Shown here in pieces: positions 37,846 to 46,187 of a stretch of DNA of 64,000 nt. Below the pieces are notes generated by a model. The model was not told where the DNA came from, ran no database searches, and saw only the letters and a list, made by a program, of their open reading frames with translations. The translations under genes and the position numbers were made by a program. The stretch is from Streptantibioticus parmotrematis (GTDB lineage: Bacteria > Actinomycetota > Actinomycetes > Streptomycetales > Streptomycetaceae). Position 1 is the stretch's first letter, and the number at the start of each line of letters is the position of its first letter. The stretch covers positions 1 through 64,000 of the forward strand of contig NZ_JAINVZ010000001.1 in NCBI RefSeq assembly GCF_019890615.1, in the 5' to 3' direction.

Positions 37846-39150
37846 TCACGCCCCCTGTGCCGCCGCCAGCACGCCCGCGCAGATCCGCGCCACGTCGTCG
37901 TCTCCGGTGACGTAGGGCGGCATCGTGTAGATCAGGTCGCGGAACGGCCGCAGCCACACGCCCGCGTCCACCGCCGCCCTGGTCGCCGCCGCCATGTCCA
38001 CCTCGTGGTCGAGCTGGACGACGCCGATCGCGCCCAGGACACGGACGTCCCGCACTCCCGCGATCCCCGTGGCCGGGGCCAGGCCCGCGCGCAGTCCGGC
38101 CTCGATGCGCCGCACCTCGGCCGCCCAGTCCTGGCCCAGCAGCACGTCGAGCGAGGCGACGGCCACCGAGGCGGCCAGTGGGTTCGCCATGAACGTCGGG
38201 CCGTGCGCGAGCACCGGCACCTCGCCCTCGCTGATCCCCTCGGCGACCCGGGAGGTGCACAGCGTCGCCGCCATCGTCAGATAGCCACCGGTCAGCGCCT
38301 TGCCCACGCACATCACGTCCGGCGCGACCCCGGCGTGCCCGGCCGCGAACAACTCGCCGGTGCGCCCGAAACCGGTCGCGATCTCGTCGAACACCAGCAG
38401 GACGCCGTGCTCGTCGCATGCCTCGCGCAGCACCCGCAGGTAGCCGGGGGAGTGGAAGCGCATCCCGCCCGCGCCCTGCACCACCGGCTCCACGATCACG
38501 GCAGCCAACTCGTCGGCGTGCCGTGCGATCAGCTCCCGCAGGTGCGCCTCGTACGCCGGGTCGGGCGCGTCGTCGTACCCGCCGGGCGGGGCGTCGGCGA
38601 AGACCTGCTCGGGCAGGGCCCCGGACCACAGGTGGTGCATGCCGCCGTCCGGATCGCACACCGACATCGGCTGCCAGGTGTCACCGTGGTAGCCGCCGCG
38701 CCAGGTCAGCAGGCGCCGCTTGGCGGGGCGGCCGGTGGAACGCCAGTACTGCAGGCACATCTTCACCGCGACCTCGACCGAGACCGACCCGGAGTCGGCG
38801 AGGAAGACGTGCCGCAGCGGTTCCGGGGTGATCTCGACCAGACGGGTGGCGAGCCGGACGGCGGGCTCGTGGGTGAGCCCGCCGAACATCACATGGCTCA
38901 TCCGTTCCAGCTGGCCGTGGGCCGCCTCGTTGAGCACCGGGTGGTTGTAGCCGTGGATAGCCGACCACCACGAGGACATGCCGTCGACCAGCTCCGTGCG
39001 GTTCCCGTCCGGACCCACGACGCGCAGCCGCACGCCGCTCGCCGACTCCACCAGCAGCGGTTCCGACCGGCCGGGCATGGGCCCGTACGGATGCCACACG
39101 TGCTCCTGGTCGAGCTTGAGCAGATCGGCCGGGTCGTACGACTCAGGCAT
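37846..39150 (-). CDS. bioA: Adenosylmethionine-8-amino-7-oxononanoate aminotransferase
   Basis: A 434-residue class III PLP aminotransferase (KAPA + SAM to DAPA). Hallmarks: HVWHPYGPM at the start, [58 protein letters not shown] (Asp to the pyridine ring), and the Schiff-base lysine in [16 protein letters not shown] 39150 overlaps the end of bioB by 8 bp, so the genes are translated together. Confidence 0.97.
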
Positions 39151-40435
39151 TGGGCGCGAGGTCCGTCCCGGCGCCGCGGCGGCGCACGGCCACGAGGTCG
39201 GGCCGCCCGGTGGGAGCCCCCTCGGCGGCGACGGCTGCGGGCGCGGCACCCTCACCGGCGGAAGCCGCGACCTGTTCCTGGTCACCGCACGTCCCGCAAC
39301 CGCCGCCGTGCGAGCCGCCGTTCTCCGCATGCGAGCCGCAGACGTCGCCGTGCGAACCGCCGTCCTCGGCGTGCGAGCCGCAACCGCCGCTCGCGTGCGC
39401 ACCGCAACCACCGCCGTCCTGCGCCCCGTTCACCCGGTGCTCGGGCAGGGTCGTGGTGCCCGCGCCCTCCACCTCGAAGCCGGCGTCCGCGATCATCTCC
39501 AGGTCGGCCTTGCCCGCCTGGCCCTCACTGGTCAGGTAGTCGCCCAGGAAGATCGAGTTGACCAGGTGGAGCGCCAGCGGCTGAAGGGTGCGCAGGTGGA
39601 TCTCCCGGCCGCCCGCGAGCCGCACCTCCACGTCCGGACAGACGAACCGGACCATCGCCAGGATCCGCAGGCAGCGCTGCGGGGTGAGGGACCACTTCTC
39701 GGCCAGCGGCGTGCCCTCGAACGGGATGAGGAAGTTGACCGGCACCGAGTCCGGGTCCATCTCCCGCAGCGCGAACACCACGTCGACCAGGTCGGCGTCC
39801 GACTCGCCCATGCCCGCGATCAGCCCCGAACAGGCCGAGAGCCCGGCCGCCTGTGCCTGCTTGACCGTCTCCACGCGGTCGGAGAAGTCGTGCGTGGAGC
39901 AGATGTCGCCGTAGGTCGCCTCGGAGGTGTTGAGGTTGTGGTTGTACGCGTCGGCGCCCGCGGAGCGCAGGCGGTCGGCCTGGCCGTCGGAGAGCAGGCC
40001 GAGGCAGGCGCACACCTCGACGCCCTCGTTCTGGTCCTTGATCGCCTCGATGGTCTTCGAGACCCGGTCCACGTCCCGGTCCGTCGGGCCGCGGCCGCTC
40101 GCCACCAGGCAGACGCGCTTGGCGCCGCCCGCGACGCCCGCGCCCGCCGCGGCCGCCGCCTCGTCCGGCTTCAGCCAGGTGTACTTGAGGATGTCGGCCT
40201 TGGAGCCGAGCCGCTGCGAGCAGTACGAGCAGTCCTCGGGGCACAGCCCGGACTTCAGGTTGACCAGATAGTTGAGCTTCACCCGCCGCCCGAACCACTG
40301 GCGGCGCACCGTGCCGGCCGCGGCCACCACGTCGAGCAGTTCGTCGTCGGAGGTGGCCAGTACGGCCAGCGCCTCGTCGCGGGTCGGCAGTTCGCGCCGC
40401 AGCCCCTTGTCCACCAGCGTCTTCAGCAGGTCCAT
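39143..40435 (-). CDS. bioB: Biotin synthase with Cys/His-rich C-terminal tail
   Basis: A 430-residue radical-SAM biotin synthase. The core has the CPEDCSYC cluster (Cys65, 69, 72), the second-cluster cysteines in [14 protein letters not shown] and [13 protein letters not shown], and Arg near [10 protein letters not shown]. The core ends near residue 335; E. coli BioB is about 346 long. The extra ~95 residues carry five Cys and five His in the first 50 ([20 protein letters not shown] and more), then an Ala-rich part and the ending [13 protein letters not shown]. The Cys/His block could hold metal or iron-sulfur material. Confidence 0.95.
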
Positions 40436-40543
40436 GGCGCCGATCTTCGCGCAGTGCACCGGTCCCGGCCAATGGCGGACCGCACAACACCCGGCCGCGA
40501 AGGTGTGTGCATCACCACATGACGGGCCGGTGTCACGGGCGGT

Positions 40544-40549
40544 TAGGTT
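40544..40549 (+). promoter_or_regulatory. -10 box of bioF (leaderless)
   Basis: TAGGTT ends 7 nt before bioF ATG 40557 with no ribosome site between. The 121-bp bioB-bioF gap must hold divergent promoters; I did not recognise a BirA or BioQ operator with confidence. Confidence 0.5.
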
Positions 40550-40556
40550 GCCGGAC

Positions 40557-41822
40557 ATGACCCTCGACCCGCGCCCCGGCGACCGATCGACGCCCCGTGC
40601 GCCGCGCCCACCCGCCACCGCTCCGCCCGCCACTGCTCCGTCCGCGACCGCTGCGCCCGTCACCGCCCCGGCCGCCCGTGACCCGTTCGGCTGGATCGAC
40701 GAACGCGCGCGGGCCCGCCGCCGGGCCGGTCTGGTGCGGACCCTGCGCCCGCGCGCGGCCGACGCCGCGCCGCTGGACCTGGCGGGCAACGACTACCTCG
40801 GTCTGACCCGGCACCCCGAGGTCACCCGGGCCGCCGCCGACGCCGCCCTGCGCTGGGGCGCGGGCTCGACCGGATCGCGCCTGGTGACCGGCACCACCGC
40901 GCTGCATGCCGAACTGGAGGCCGAACTCGCCGCGTTCTGCGGCTTCGAGTCCGCCCTGGTCTTCGCCAGTGGCTACGCGGCCAACCTCGCCGCGGTCACC
41001 GCGCTGAGCGCGCCCGGCGGCCTCATCGTCTCCGACGCGGGCAACCACGCGTCGCTGATCGACGGCTGCCGCCTGGCCCGAGCCACCACCGAGGTCGTCG
41101 CGCACCGCGATCCCGACACCGTCCGCAAGGCACTCGCCGGCCACGAGGGTCCCGCGCTCGTCGTCACCGACTCGGTGTTCTCTGTGGACGGCGACGCGGC
41201 GCCGCTCGCCCGTCTCGCCCCGGTCTGCCGCGCGGCGGGCGCCGCTCTGCTGATCGACGACGCGCACGGGCTCGGGGTGCTCGGCGAGGGAGGCCGGGGA
41301 GCGGCCGACGCGGCAGGTCTGGCGGGGGCGCCGGACGTGGTCTGCACGGTGACCCTGTCGAAGGCGCTCGGCAGCCAGGGCGGCGCGGTGCTCGGACCGG
41401 CGCGGGTCGTGGAGCACCTGGTCAACGCCGCCCGCACGTTCATCTTCGACACCGGCCTCGCGCCCGCCGCCGCGGCCGGGGCGCTCGCCGCGCTGCGGGT
41501 GTTGCGGCGTGAGCCGGAACGTCCGGGCCGGGCACACGGCGTGGCGCGGGAGTTGTACGACAGGCTGACCGGCGCCGGTCTGGACGCGGTCGCCCCGGAC
41601 GCCTGCGTCCTGTCCGTGCTCGCGCCCGCGCCCGAGGCGGCGCTGCGGTGGGCGGCGGACTGCCGTGACGAGGGGCTCGCGGTGGGCTGCTTCCGGCCGC
41701 CGTCGGTGCCGGACGGCATCTCCCGGCTGCGTCTGACCGCCCGCGCCGACCTGACGGGTGAACAGATCGACCGGGCGGTGGAGGTGATCGTCCGTACCGC
41801 ACCGCGGGGCGCCCGCCGCTGA
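40557..41822 (+). CDS. bioF: 8-amino-7-oxononanoate synthase
   Basis: A 421-residue class II PLP enzyme making KAPA from pimeloyl thioester and alanine. Features: [68 protein letters not shown] (Asp to PLP ring), and Lys in [13 protein letters not shown]. The first ~45 residues are a Thr/Pro/Ala-rich extension. It is divergent from bioB. Confidence 0.95.
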
Positions 41823-42846: not shown

Positions 42847-43332
42847 TCAGCTGACCCGCCCGTACCAGACGCTGCGGGTCCAGATGTGTTCCAGCCGGAC
42901 CCGTGCCCCGGTGTGCGGCGCGTGCCAGATCTCGTCGTCGCCCGCGTAGACGCCGACGTGGTAGACGTCGTCGCCGTAGTGGAAGAAGACCAGGTCGCCG
43001 GGGGCCCGTGACGAGGCGGGGATGTGCCGGGTCCCGTCGTACTGCTCGGCGGCGGTCCGCGGCAGCCTCCGCCCGGCCTGCCGGAAGGCGTAGAGCGTCA
43101 GCCCCGAGCAGTCGAAGCGGTACGGCCCGGTCGCGCCGTACTGGTAGGGGGAGCCCCGCTTGGCCGCCGCGACGTGCAGGGCCTCCATGGCCACGGCCGC
43201 CGCGTTCGCGGGCGGCGCCATCCCGGGCGCCAGCAGGCTTCCGGCCAGGGCGGCCGCGGTCAGCACCGCCGTCGTCCCGGTCCGGGAGAGCGCCTTGGCC
43301 AGGCATGCGGTGGGTGATATCGGCGCACTCAT
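42847..43332 (-). CDS. Secreted NlpC/P60 cell-wall hydrolase
   Basis: A 161-residue precursor with a signal peptide (cut near PPANA) and an NlpC/P60 domain of about 110 residues. The catalytic Cys is in YRFDCSGLTLYAF (Cys75), the His in DVYHVGVYAG, and the third residue His in WHAPHTG. It would cut the stem peptide of peptidoglycan. ATG 43332 has AAGGAG 7-8 nt upstream. A ydaO-type c-di-AMP riboswitch lies in its leader. Confidence 0.92.
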   Translation of the reverse strand: MSAPISPTACLAKALSRTGTTAVLTAAALAGSLLAPGMAPPANAAAVAMEALHVAAAKRGSPYQYGATGPYRFDCSGLTLYAFRQAGRRLPRTAAEQYDGTRHIPASSRAPGDLVFFHYGDDVYHVGVYAGDDEIWHAPHTGARVRLEHIWTRSVWYGRVS

Positions 43333-43344
43333 CGCGCACTCCTT

Positions 43345-43480
43345 CGTCGACCGCCTGCGAAGGAGTGCCTGTCGGGTTCGGGCAGGCGAAGAATGCCCGG
43401 CCGCCGTGGCGGCTTCACCCCAAGGGGTCCTTACGTCCTTCGACGGACCCCGTACCGCTCGGGTCCTCCGCTCCTGCCGG
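43345..43480 (-). promoter_or_regulatory. c-di-AMP (ydaO/yuaA) riboswitch
   Basis: Read on the minus strand the leader carries the conserved ydaO blocks in order: CTTGGGGTGAAGCCG (43424-43410), a GC stem, then CCCGAACCCGACAGG (43382-43368) and finally CTTCGCAGGCGG before the ribosome site. GGGUGAA and CCGAACCCG-CAG are the most conserved ydaO strings. The upstream limit is approximate. In streptomycetes ydaO elements control cell-wall hydrolases such as RpfA and NlpC/P60 proteins, which matches the gene downstream: high c-di-AMP should reduce expression. Confidence 0.88.
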
Positions 43481-43599
43481 CTGTGGCGTCGACCTGACCT
43501 CCGGGCGCCGGCAGGACTCGGCGTTCGCTCGGAGCGCCCCACCCCTTCGGCGGGGGCTTGTCGTCCCAGGGATGATTACGCACAAACCGGAAAAATCTC

Positions 43600-44054: not shown

Positions 44055-44170
44055 CAGCCGTCCTGTGCCCTCAGCCGCCTTGCCCCCGACCGTCTCGCCT
44101 CCTCAGCCGCCTTGCCCCCAGCCGTCCCGTCGCCAACCGTTCTGCCCCAACCCGTCCTGCCGTCAGCCGT
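44055..44170. repeat. About eight 14-17-bp tandem units spanning a stop codon
   Basis: Units of CAGCCG(T/C)C(C/T)TG-type sequence repeat from 44055 to 44170: 44055-44071, 44072-44088, 44089-44103, 44104-44119, 44120-44134, 44135-44149, 44150-44163, and a final one into the gene. The stop codon of the minus-strand gene (44163-44165) lies inside the array, so its last residues (GDG) are encoded by a repeat unit. Confidence 0.8.
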
Positions 44171-44483
44171 CCCCCTCGCGCTCCGGCTCCTTCCGGGGGA
44201 TCGCGGGCAGCGACGTCCTGCGTTCGCCGTCCAGGACGCGCAGCGCCCGCACCAGCGTGTCCCGGTGCACCTCGGCCTCGCCGCGTTCGTGCATCAGGGC
44301 CAGCGCGTCTCTGAGCGAGGCGGCCTGGCCCACCAGCGCCTGGGCGGCGCGCAGTGCGGCGTAGGTGTTCGTGGCGCGGGCCGGGTTGGCGCGGCCCAGC
44401 AGGTCGGCGATGGCCAGGTAGCTGTCGATGAACTGGCCCTCGGCGCGGGTCAGCGCGGGCATCGGCGGCAGGTCGGGGATCAC
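44163..44483 (-). CDS. Hypothetical helical protein downstream of ClpP-like gene
   Basis: A 106-residue, mostly helical protein: MIPDLPPMPALTRAEGQFID, then SYLAIADLLGRANPARATNT, YAALRAAQALVGQAASLRDA and HERGEAEVHRDTLVRALRVL. I recognise no family. GTG 44483 is 8 nt beyond the ClpP-like stop (44491), so the two form an operon. A longer frame into the ClpP gene is unlikely. Possible adaptor or partner of the ClpP-like protein, by context only. Confidence 0.6.
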   Translation of the reverse strand: MIPDLPPMPALTRAEGQFIDSYLAIADLLGRANPARATNTYAALRAAQALVGQAASLRDALALMHERGEAEVHRDTLVRALRVLDGERRTSLPAIPRKEPEREGDG

Positions 44484-44490
44484 GTTGCGA

Positions 44491-45171
44491 TCACCGGTCC
44501 TCGGATGCTGCCGGGAAGGCCTCGCCGTTCTCGGCGACCCGGTCCACCAGCCCGTAAGCAACGGCCTGTTGGGCGTCGAGTACGGTCGTGTGCTCCAGGT
44601 CGGCGTGCACGCGGGAGCGGGGGCGTCCGGTGTACCGGGCGAGCAGTTCCTCGAACCGGTCACGCCTGCGCAGCAGTTCGGCGACGTGCACCTTCAGGTC
44701 GGACGCCCGCCCGTGCAACGGCTCGTCGTTCGTGGGCTGTTGGAGGGTGATGCGGGCGCCGGGCAGGACGAGGCGCTTGCCCGGCGTCCCGGCGGCCAGG
44801 AGCACGGCCGCCGCGGGGCCCGCCTGACCCAGGCAGACCGTGCGGACGTCGCAGGACAGATGGCGCATCGTGTCGTGGAGCGCGGTCAGGGCGGTGAACG
44901 AGCCGCCCGGCGAGTTGACGCACAGCTGGATCTCGCGGTCCGGCGCGTCGCGGTCGAGCCGCAGCAGCTGCGCGATCAGGACGTTCGCCGAGGCGTCGTC
45001 GAGGGACCCGCCGAGCATGACCACCCGACGCGCGAGCAGGTGGGCGTAGAGGCCGTCGTCCTGCGGCGGCAGCAGGCCAAGTCCGCTGCGCAGTCCGGGT
45101 GGTTCAGCCTGCTCCGGGCCTGCGGGGCCTCCTTGCTCCGGCCCCGCGGGGTCTCCGGTTCGTCCTGGCAT
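44491..45171 (-). CDS. ClpP homologue lacking the catalytic triad
   Basis: A 226-residue ClpP-fold protein with a Pro/Glu-rich N-terminus. The fold is clear (RRVVMLGGSLDDASANVLIA, QLCVNSPGGSFTALTALHDT, VCLGQAGPAAAVLLAAGTPG, AVAYGLVDRVAEN). Aligned without gaps to E. coli ClpP, the Ser of GQAASM is Pro119, the His of MIHQP is Gln144, and the Asp of ERDRF is Thr195. All three catalytic residues are thus absent, so it should be a non-proteolytic ClpR-like subunit that could enter mixed rings. ATG 45171 has GGAGGTG 6 nt upstream. It is divergent from a Phd-type antitoxin gene. Confidence 0.85.
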   Translation of the reverse strand: MPGRTGDPAGPEQGGPAGPEQAEPPGLRSGLGLLPPQDDGLYAHLLARRVVMLGGSLDDASANVLIAQLLRLDRDAPDREIQLCVNSPGGSFTALTALHDTMRHLSCDVRTVCLGQAGPAAAVLLAAGTPGKRLVLPGARITLQQPTNDEPLHGRASDLKVHVAELLRRRDRFEELLARYTGRPRSRVHADLEHTTVLDAQQAVAYGLVDRVAENGEAFPAASEDR

Positions 45172-45270
45172 GGGCGACACCTCCATGGCCTCGGGCGGGA
45201 CGCGGTCTCGCACCGGCGAGCGCGCGGCCCTGCGACAGCGGCTCTGTGTAAAAGGCAGCTCTGTAAAAAA

Positions 45271-45297
45271 TGTACAGGACGTACGGTCCGTTATGAT
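45271..45297 (+). promoter_or_regulatory. Promoter and dyad before the Phd-type gene
   Basis: A perfect -10 TATGAT (45292-45297) lies 7 nt before ATG 45305, so translation is probably leaderless. Just upstream is GGAC-N5-GTCC (45277-45289) within TGTACAGGACGTACGG, a likely site for antitoxin autoregulation. The AT-rich gap also serves the divergent ClpP-like gene. Confidence 0.6.
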
Positions 45298-45304
45298 GGT
45301 GAGC

Positions 45305-45586
45305 ATGGCCCACGAAGTCCCCGTGACACAAGCCCGCGCCGAGCTGGCCGAGCTGATCAACCGCGTCGTCTACGGCGGCGAGCGGGTCGTCGTCACCCGG
45401 CACGGCAAGCCGCTCGTCGCCCTGGTCTCCGCCGCCGACCTGCGGCGACTCGAAGAGGACGAACGGGCCGAGGGCGGCCGGATGATCAGTTCCGTCTCCG
45501 CCGTGGGACTCGGAGCGTCCGCTCCCGGCGAACGCCCCCGTTTCGGCATCGCCGCCCACCACGCCCCGCACTCCCCGGAGGCCTGA
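45305..45586 (+). CDS. Phd/YefM-family antitoxin without adjacent toxin
   Basis: A 93-residue protein with the Phd/YefM domain: [20 protein letters not shown], then [20 protein letters not shown] and [20 protein letters not shown]. The C-terminal 30 residues are Gly/Pro/His-rich. Antitoxins of this family normally precede a RelE or Doc toxin, but the next gene is ureA 299 bp away on the same strand, so it stands alone. It may act as a free-standing DNA-binding regulator or buffer a toxin elsewhere. It is divergent from the ClpP-like gene. Confidence 0.82.
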
Positions 45587-45639: not shown

Positions 45640-45677
45640 TTAACGCCCGCGAAACCGACCGGACGCGAGTGCGTAAT
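45640..45677 (+). promoter_or_regulatory. GlnR box upstream of the urease cluster
   Basis: Four 5-mers are spaced by 6 bp, as in GlnR boxes (gTnAC-N6-GaAAc repeated): TTAAC (45640-45644), GAAAC (45651-45655), GACGC (45662-45666) and GTAAT (45673-45677). The first pair is a near-consensus site; the second is weaker. GlnR activates or represses nitrogen genes including urease in streptomycetes, so the position 208 bp before ureA is meaningful. The remainder of the gap 45678-45884 holds no recognisable gene. Confidence 0.72.
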
Positions 45678-45884
45678 CACCCTGCAAAAACCTGGGAACC
45701 AGCAGGTCAAGCGGGGCTCGGCCGGGCGTACCGTGCATGGTGCAGTCATCCGGACACCCGGTGTGCGCACCCCTCACGCGCCGGCTCCCGACGCCCGACC
45801 GTGGCGGGCGGGCCGTGGCCGATGACCCATGGCCCGCGAGCGGCACCGGGCAGGACCGAGCAGGGACGACGTGAGGTGGTACGC

Positions 45885-46187
45885 GTGCGACTGACCCCGC
45901 ATGAACAGGAGCGTCTGCTGATCCACGTGGCGGCGGACGTGGCGCGCAGACGTCTCGACCGCGGTGTACGGCTCAACCACCCCGAGGCGGTCGCGCTCAT
46001 CACCACGCACGTCCTCGAAGGCGCCCGGGACGGCCGTACCGTCGCGGAGTTGATGTCCTCCGGCCGCAAGGTGCTCACCCGTGACGAGGTCATGGAGGGC
46101 ATCCCGGAGATGCTGTCCGACGTCCAGGTGGAGGCGACCTTCCCGGACGGCACCAAGCTGGTCACCGTCCACGACCCGATCGGCTGA
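45885..46187 (+). CDS. ureA: Urease gamma subunit
   Basis: A 100-residue Ure[61 protein letters not shown] and [18 protein letters not shown], full length and colinear with the family. GTG 45885 is used; GAGGTGGT sits just upstream. It starts the ureABCFGD series. Confidence 0.96.

Follow-up and report, generated by a model that had tools for sequence, protein, structure and literature searches.

The ClpP homolog encoded by the window (the whole stretch of 64,000 nucleotides of Streptantibioticus parmotrematis DNA analyzed here) lacks the entire catalytic triad of the protease. On balance, we favor the view that it represents the third, solitary ClpP of Streptomycetaceae, turned into a pseudoprotease subunit that is still maintained. 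Its orthologs at the same chromosomal position in related soil bacteria have lost triad residues many times in parallel, often with the protein remaining under selection, which points to a function for which cutting is not needed any more.

The clpP5 Gene and Its Neighborhood

44491..45171 (-): clpP5-type gene, coding for a triad-less ClpP of 226 aa (ORF, Pfam, alignments, AlphaFold model)
45178..45184 (-): Shine-Dalgarno sequence GGAGGTG of clpP5, 6 nt 5′ of the ATG

The open reading frame starts at an ATG at 45171 and stops at 44491, and GGAGGTG also precedes the start in several relatives. A longer version starting at TTG 45360 was dismissed, because it would overlap phd and because a good ribosome site precedes the ATG at 45171. 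The product matches PF00574 (CLP_protease) with 176 bits over residues 41–215 (profile positions 9–181 of 182; curated cut-off 20.2 bits), and scores 157.4 bits, under the 308.6 cut-off, against TIGR00493, the NCBIfam equivalog of active ClpP. The 7.4-Mb genome of S. parmotrematis contains exactly three ClpPs: the tandem ClpP1–ClpP2 pair, both with intact triads, and the clpP5 product, which is nearer to ClpP2 (about 49%) than to ClpP1 (41%). Its closest relative, at about 80% identity, is found in Streptomyces sp. ICBB 8177.

Among 249 Streptomycetaceae genomes searched, 102 loci were extracted for neighborhood comparison. They show a conserved order: a divergent Phd/YefM-type gene, clpP, a small gene, NlpC/P60, urease genes, and biotin genes.

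44163..44483 (-): three-helix protein, small and conserved (106 aa; start codon GTG), encoded 7 bp 3′ of clpP5 on the same strand
45305..45586 (+): Phd/YefM-family antitoxin-like regulator (PF02604/TIGR01552), divergent from clpP5 (99/102 loci)
42847..43542 (-): NlpC/P60 protein, syntenic neighbor (96/102 loci)
45669..46187 (+): urease gamma subunit, syntenic neighbor (89/102 loci)

The three-helix gene lies directly downstream of clpP5 in every one of the 102 loci. Its product matches no Pfam family, no credible NCBIfam family, and no PDB sequence, and a fold search returned nothing significant (best Foldseek E 1.5). This highly conserved protein of about 100 aa also occurs in another actinobacterial family (L187–L189), with no clpP nearby. 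The phd gene may alternatively start at an in-frame upstream ATG at 45296, and no toxin gene was recognized beside it. The order phd, clpP5, small gene is also found, with an intact triad, in a genome of another actinobacterial family (L190). One genome has an extra copy of this three-gene module on another contig, besides the syntenic copy. Elsewhere in the window, a BioB-like protein (39143–40675, minus strand) carries a C-terminal tail of Cys/His/Gly-rich repeats that is possibly metal-binding.

Streptomycetes have mostly three or five ClpPs, clpP5 being the single, monocistronic one in the numbering of S. lividans (PMC9765437). In trees, the product of the S. parmotrematis gene groups with the Streptomycetaceae orthologs and not with ClpP1 or ClpP2. 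By elimination, synteny, and tree position, the gene thus matches the solitary ClpP5 of Streptomycetaceae. SCO1230, considered as the S. coelicolor ortholog, is a tripeptidyl aminopeptidase and was rejected.

Loss of the Catalytic Triad

Pro119, 44815–44817 (-): codon at the Ser position of the triad
Gln144, 44740–44742 (-): codon at the His position
Thr195, 44587–44589 (-): codon at the Asp position

The original prediction held that all three catalytic residues are replaced, and gap-free alignments with ClpP2 and ClpP1 of the same genome and with ClpP of E. coli confirm that Pro119, Gln144, and Thr195 stand at the Ser, His, and Asp positions. The corresponding segments read GQAGPAAAV instead of the GQAASAAAV of intact ClpP, RITLQQP instead of RVLIHQP, and DLEHTTVLD instead of DIERDNILT. 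The ortholog of ICBB 8177 has the identical P/Q/T, which rules out a sequencing error. A triad at shifted positions was looked for in a multiple alignment of about 100 orthologs, and none was found. Some relatives have a Ser at +1 of the nucleophile position (GQAGASAAV); this Ser is absent from S. parmotrematis ClpP5, whose nucleophile stretch contains no Ser at all. The predicted status of non-proteolytic ClpP homolog is therefore backed by the sequence, by the close relative, and by the fold (see following).

Recurrent Loss among Orthologs

The Ser-His-Asp triad is kept in 47 of the 101 alignable orthologs (S. parmotrematis included), and the remaining 54 show about 30 other residue combinations. 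All three residues are lost in nine sequences, with eight distinct replacement triplets: PQT in S. parmotrematis and ICBB 8177, and ARE, AEA, PDE, GQT, DST, AEE, and PRG in the others. To count changes, a tree was built on 174 columns, with the triad columns excluded and ClpP2 as the outgroup. On its well-supported branches there are at least 11 independent changes of Ser, 8 of Asp, and 5 of His, and the most parsimonious numbers on the best tree are 15, 11, and 8, respectively; these counts are approximate, because the tree is short and its bootstrap has not settled. As the ClpP2 outgroup is intact, the changes are losses. Comparison of the orthologs hence shows a triad that was intact in the ancestor and was then lost many times in parallel. 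We found no report of triad loss in ClpP5 in the open literature; subscription papers, outside that search, may note it.

On the same tree, S. parmotrematis ClpP5 falls within a well-supported set of seven orthologs, whose other members on a quick tree are ICBB 8177 (PQT) and sequences with AEA, SDA, GQD, SEA, and SEV. His is lost in all seven and Asp in six, and in the S. parmotrematis lineage the loss of His probably came before that of Ser. Triad loss does not correlate with the presence of an extra ClpP3P4 pair, as judged from counts of ClpP matches (Fisher p = 0.40).

Outside this group, in Microbacterium and Cellulomonas denverensis (three loci), a ClpP2-like subunit lacks the nucleophile Ser (GQAVGAGAV, GQAVAVGAV) and the nearby ClpP1-like gene is intact, so that one member of the ClpP pair is apparently dead.

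Fold, Axial Segment, and Docking Residues

The original prediction claimed a conserved fold and called for a structural model and a comparison of its axial loops with those of ClpP. The AlphaFold model bears out the fold: residues 42–215 form a canonical ClpP core, with pLDDT mostly >90, and the best PDB matches are the ClpP2 proteins of M. tuberculosis (Foldseek E 6e-25) and S. hawaiiensis, with an rmsd of about 1 Å. The axial hairpin, in contrast, is gone. The sampled degenerate orthologs retain the N-terminal axial segment LPEFTERTSxGTRTxDP, whereas in S. parmotrematis and ICBB 8177 it is replaced by a Pro/Gly/Glu-rich stretch, modeled as disordered in S. parmotrematis (residues 1–39, pLDDT about 50).

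The same two proteins have the substitutions D64V, Y84C, R194H, and R216G (the last three being Y62→C, R170→H, and R192→G in E. coli numbering) at positions retained by essentially all other degenerate members. Arg170, the Arg sensor, which adjoins Asp171, is conserved in 52 of the 52 degenerate sequences other than these two. The sensor and docking-pocket roles are those of the corresponding residues of E. coli ClpP. The GG oxyanion loop and the pocket residues Gln145-Pro146 are still present in S. parmotrematis ClpP5. Loss of the hairpin, of the sensor, and of residues in the pocket makes ATPase docking doubtful for this protein. The predicted likeness to ClpR, with mixed rings, suits most of the degenerate relatives, in which axial loop, Arg sensor, and docking residues are preserved. 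In the S. parmotrematis lineage, the loss of the hairpin, R170, Y62, and R192 makes mixed rings less certain than predicted.

Constraint and Gene Loss

In the 52 other degenerate sequences, an average of 95% of the 56 columns outside the triad that show no variation among the 47 intact sequences is retained; at the triad columns, retention is 54% for Ser, 19% for His, and 67% for Asp. Between S. parmotrematis and ICBB 8177, both triad-less, dN/dS is 0.32 (bootstrap 0.21–0.50), and their shared P/Q/T means that their divergence most simply postdates triad loss. These values show S. parmotrematis ClpP5 to be still under purifying selection after losing its triad. Median dN/dS is 0.25 in 14 degenerate pairs (range 0.11–0.49) and 0.17 in 19 intact pairs, a difference that is not significant (p = 0.08); the degenerate clpP5 pairs also exceed the neighboring ureA. 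Judged by these substitution patterns, degenerate ClpP5 is constrained, somewhat less so than its active cousins.

At about a dozen syntenic loci clpP5 is absent, truncated, or frameshifted while the three-helix gene is kept, so that it is dispensable there, unlike the small gene's retention might suggest. Three loci (L149, L155, L160) have phd and the small gene with clpP5 gone, and one genome (L052/L023) has an in-frame TAG within clpP5.

A Conserved Element between phd and clpP5

45261..45285 (-): conserved intergenic element CGTACGTCCTGTACATTTTTTACAG with two GTAC cores spaced by 9 bp; candidate operator of the Phd-like protein

The element TGTACGTCCTGTACATTTTTTACAG, or a close variant, lies between phd and clpP5 in 96 of the 111 phd-bearing loci, among them S. 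parmotrematis and some loci without clpP5. Repressors of the YefM type bind palindromes with TGTACA cores, spaced 12 bp in yefM-yoeB (PMC7730913), which makes autoregulation of phd and control of clpP5 plausible. By this analogy, the Phd-like protein probably represses itself, clpP5, and the small gene through the TGTAC element. The resemblance to Phd/YefM antitoxins with TGTACA operators lies in the PF02604/TIGR01552 domain and in the TGTAC-containing intergenic element; the differences lie in the toxin gene, not recognized alongside here, and in the shorter core spacing.

Interpretation

In the reading we favor, ClpP5 would fold as a ClpP subunit and act without catalysis, joining rings with ClpP1 and ClpP2 or competing for them, and thereby tuning the amount of active protease assembled. 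Such subunit exchange has a precedent in ClpP_ADEP, an accessory ClpP of Streptomyces with this mode of action. Most degenerate relatives may have a ClpR-like mode of action. In the genus of S. parmotrematis, where the axial hairpin and the Arg sensor are lost, ClpP5 is more likely a non-docking assembly modulator, since the loss of ring and docking residues speaks against simple mixed rings that dock onto the ATPase.

The main rival is decay, in which many lineages ceased to need the activity, relaxed selection let the triad go, and clpP5 is now drifting toward deletion without having gained a new role. The broken or missing copies of clpP5 between preserved flanking genes, the in-frame TAG, the raised dN/dS of degenerate pairs, and the extra losses in the genus of S. 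parmotrematis are what one would expect from it. However, dN/dS remains well below 1 in pairs sharing the same loss and in degenerate pairs overall, the other invariant positions are nearly all retained, and the start, ribosome site, and promoter element of clpP5 are intact; we thus consider decay rather unlikely, if a serious contender. That ClpP5 has left the Clp protease for a role outside the ring, as a scaffold or as a partner of the three-helix protein, would agree with the invariable position of the small gene just behind clpP5 and with the loss of hairpin, sensor, and pocket residues in the S. parmotrematis clade. Yet many genomes have the small protein and no clpP5, and it occurs in another family with no clpP nearby, which indicates that it does not depend on ClpP5 and leaves this role improbable. 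Still less credible is an enzyme working through a different set of residues: the oxyanion loop and Gln145-Pro146 are kept, but the nucleophile position holds no Ser, Cys, or Thr, its Pro is found also in ICBB 8177, and His and Asp are gone as well.

A wider reading of the maintained pseudoprotease, which we regard as possible rather than probable, is that Streptomycetaceae repeatedly make an orthologous ClpP a pseudoprotease whose non-catalytic function is the one selected, is under the control of a repurposed repressor of antitoxin type, and is shared with the small conserved protein as a partner. If true, these genomes would hold a natural replicate series, from active to partly degenerate, to triad-less and axial-loop-less, and to deleted. 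To our knowledge, inactive ClpP paralogs are mainly isolated cases of ancient origin, ClpR among them; here a single syntenic gene offers active and inactive versions by the dozen, all closely related, and many independent losses. Tractable Streptomyces can thus reveal what a ClpP subunit does once it has ceased to cut, and the order in which its parts can be dispensed with. The series is also relevant to the unexplained role of ClpP5 within the complex Streptomyces Clp system, which ADEP antibiotics target.

Comparison with Known Clp Systems

ClpR of cyanobacteria and plastids is a paralog with the ClpP fold and without a working triad, present beside active ClpPs. S. parmotrematis ClpP5 resembles it in that the triad is lost and the subunit kept in a genome with active ClpPs. 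It differs in the many independent losses within its group, in having no clpR-clpP operon, and, in its own clade, in the absence of the axial hairpin and of the Arg sensor. Because many members of the clade have intact triads, it is not simply a ClpR. It nests among Streptomycetaceae orthologs, many with intact triads, which strongly implies that its inactivation had a separate origin, within Streptomycetaceae, in trees built without ClpR sequences. ClpP5 of S. lividans is likewise solitary, outside the clpP1P2 and clpP3P4 pairs, although, unlike there, clpP5 is possibly not monocistronic here, given the gene 7 bp behind it. ClpP_ADEP of S. hawaiiensis binds ClpP1, blocks ClpP1 tetradecamers, and pairs with ClpP2; it is thus also an accessory Streptomyces ClpP, and one by which the composition of the ring is altered (PMC12607617). 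It resembles ClpP1 and makes up an active core together with ClpP2, whereas S. parmotrematis ClpP5 is closer to ClpP2 and triad-less.
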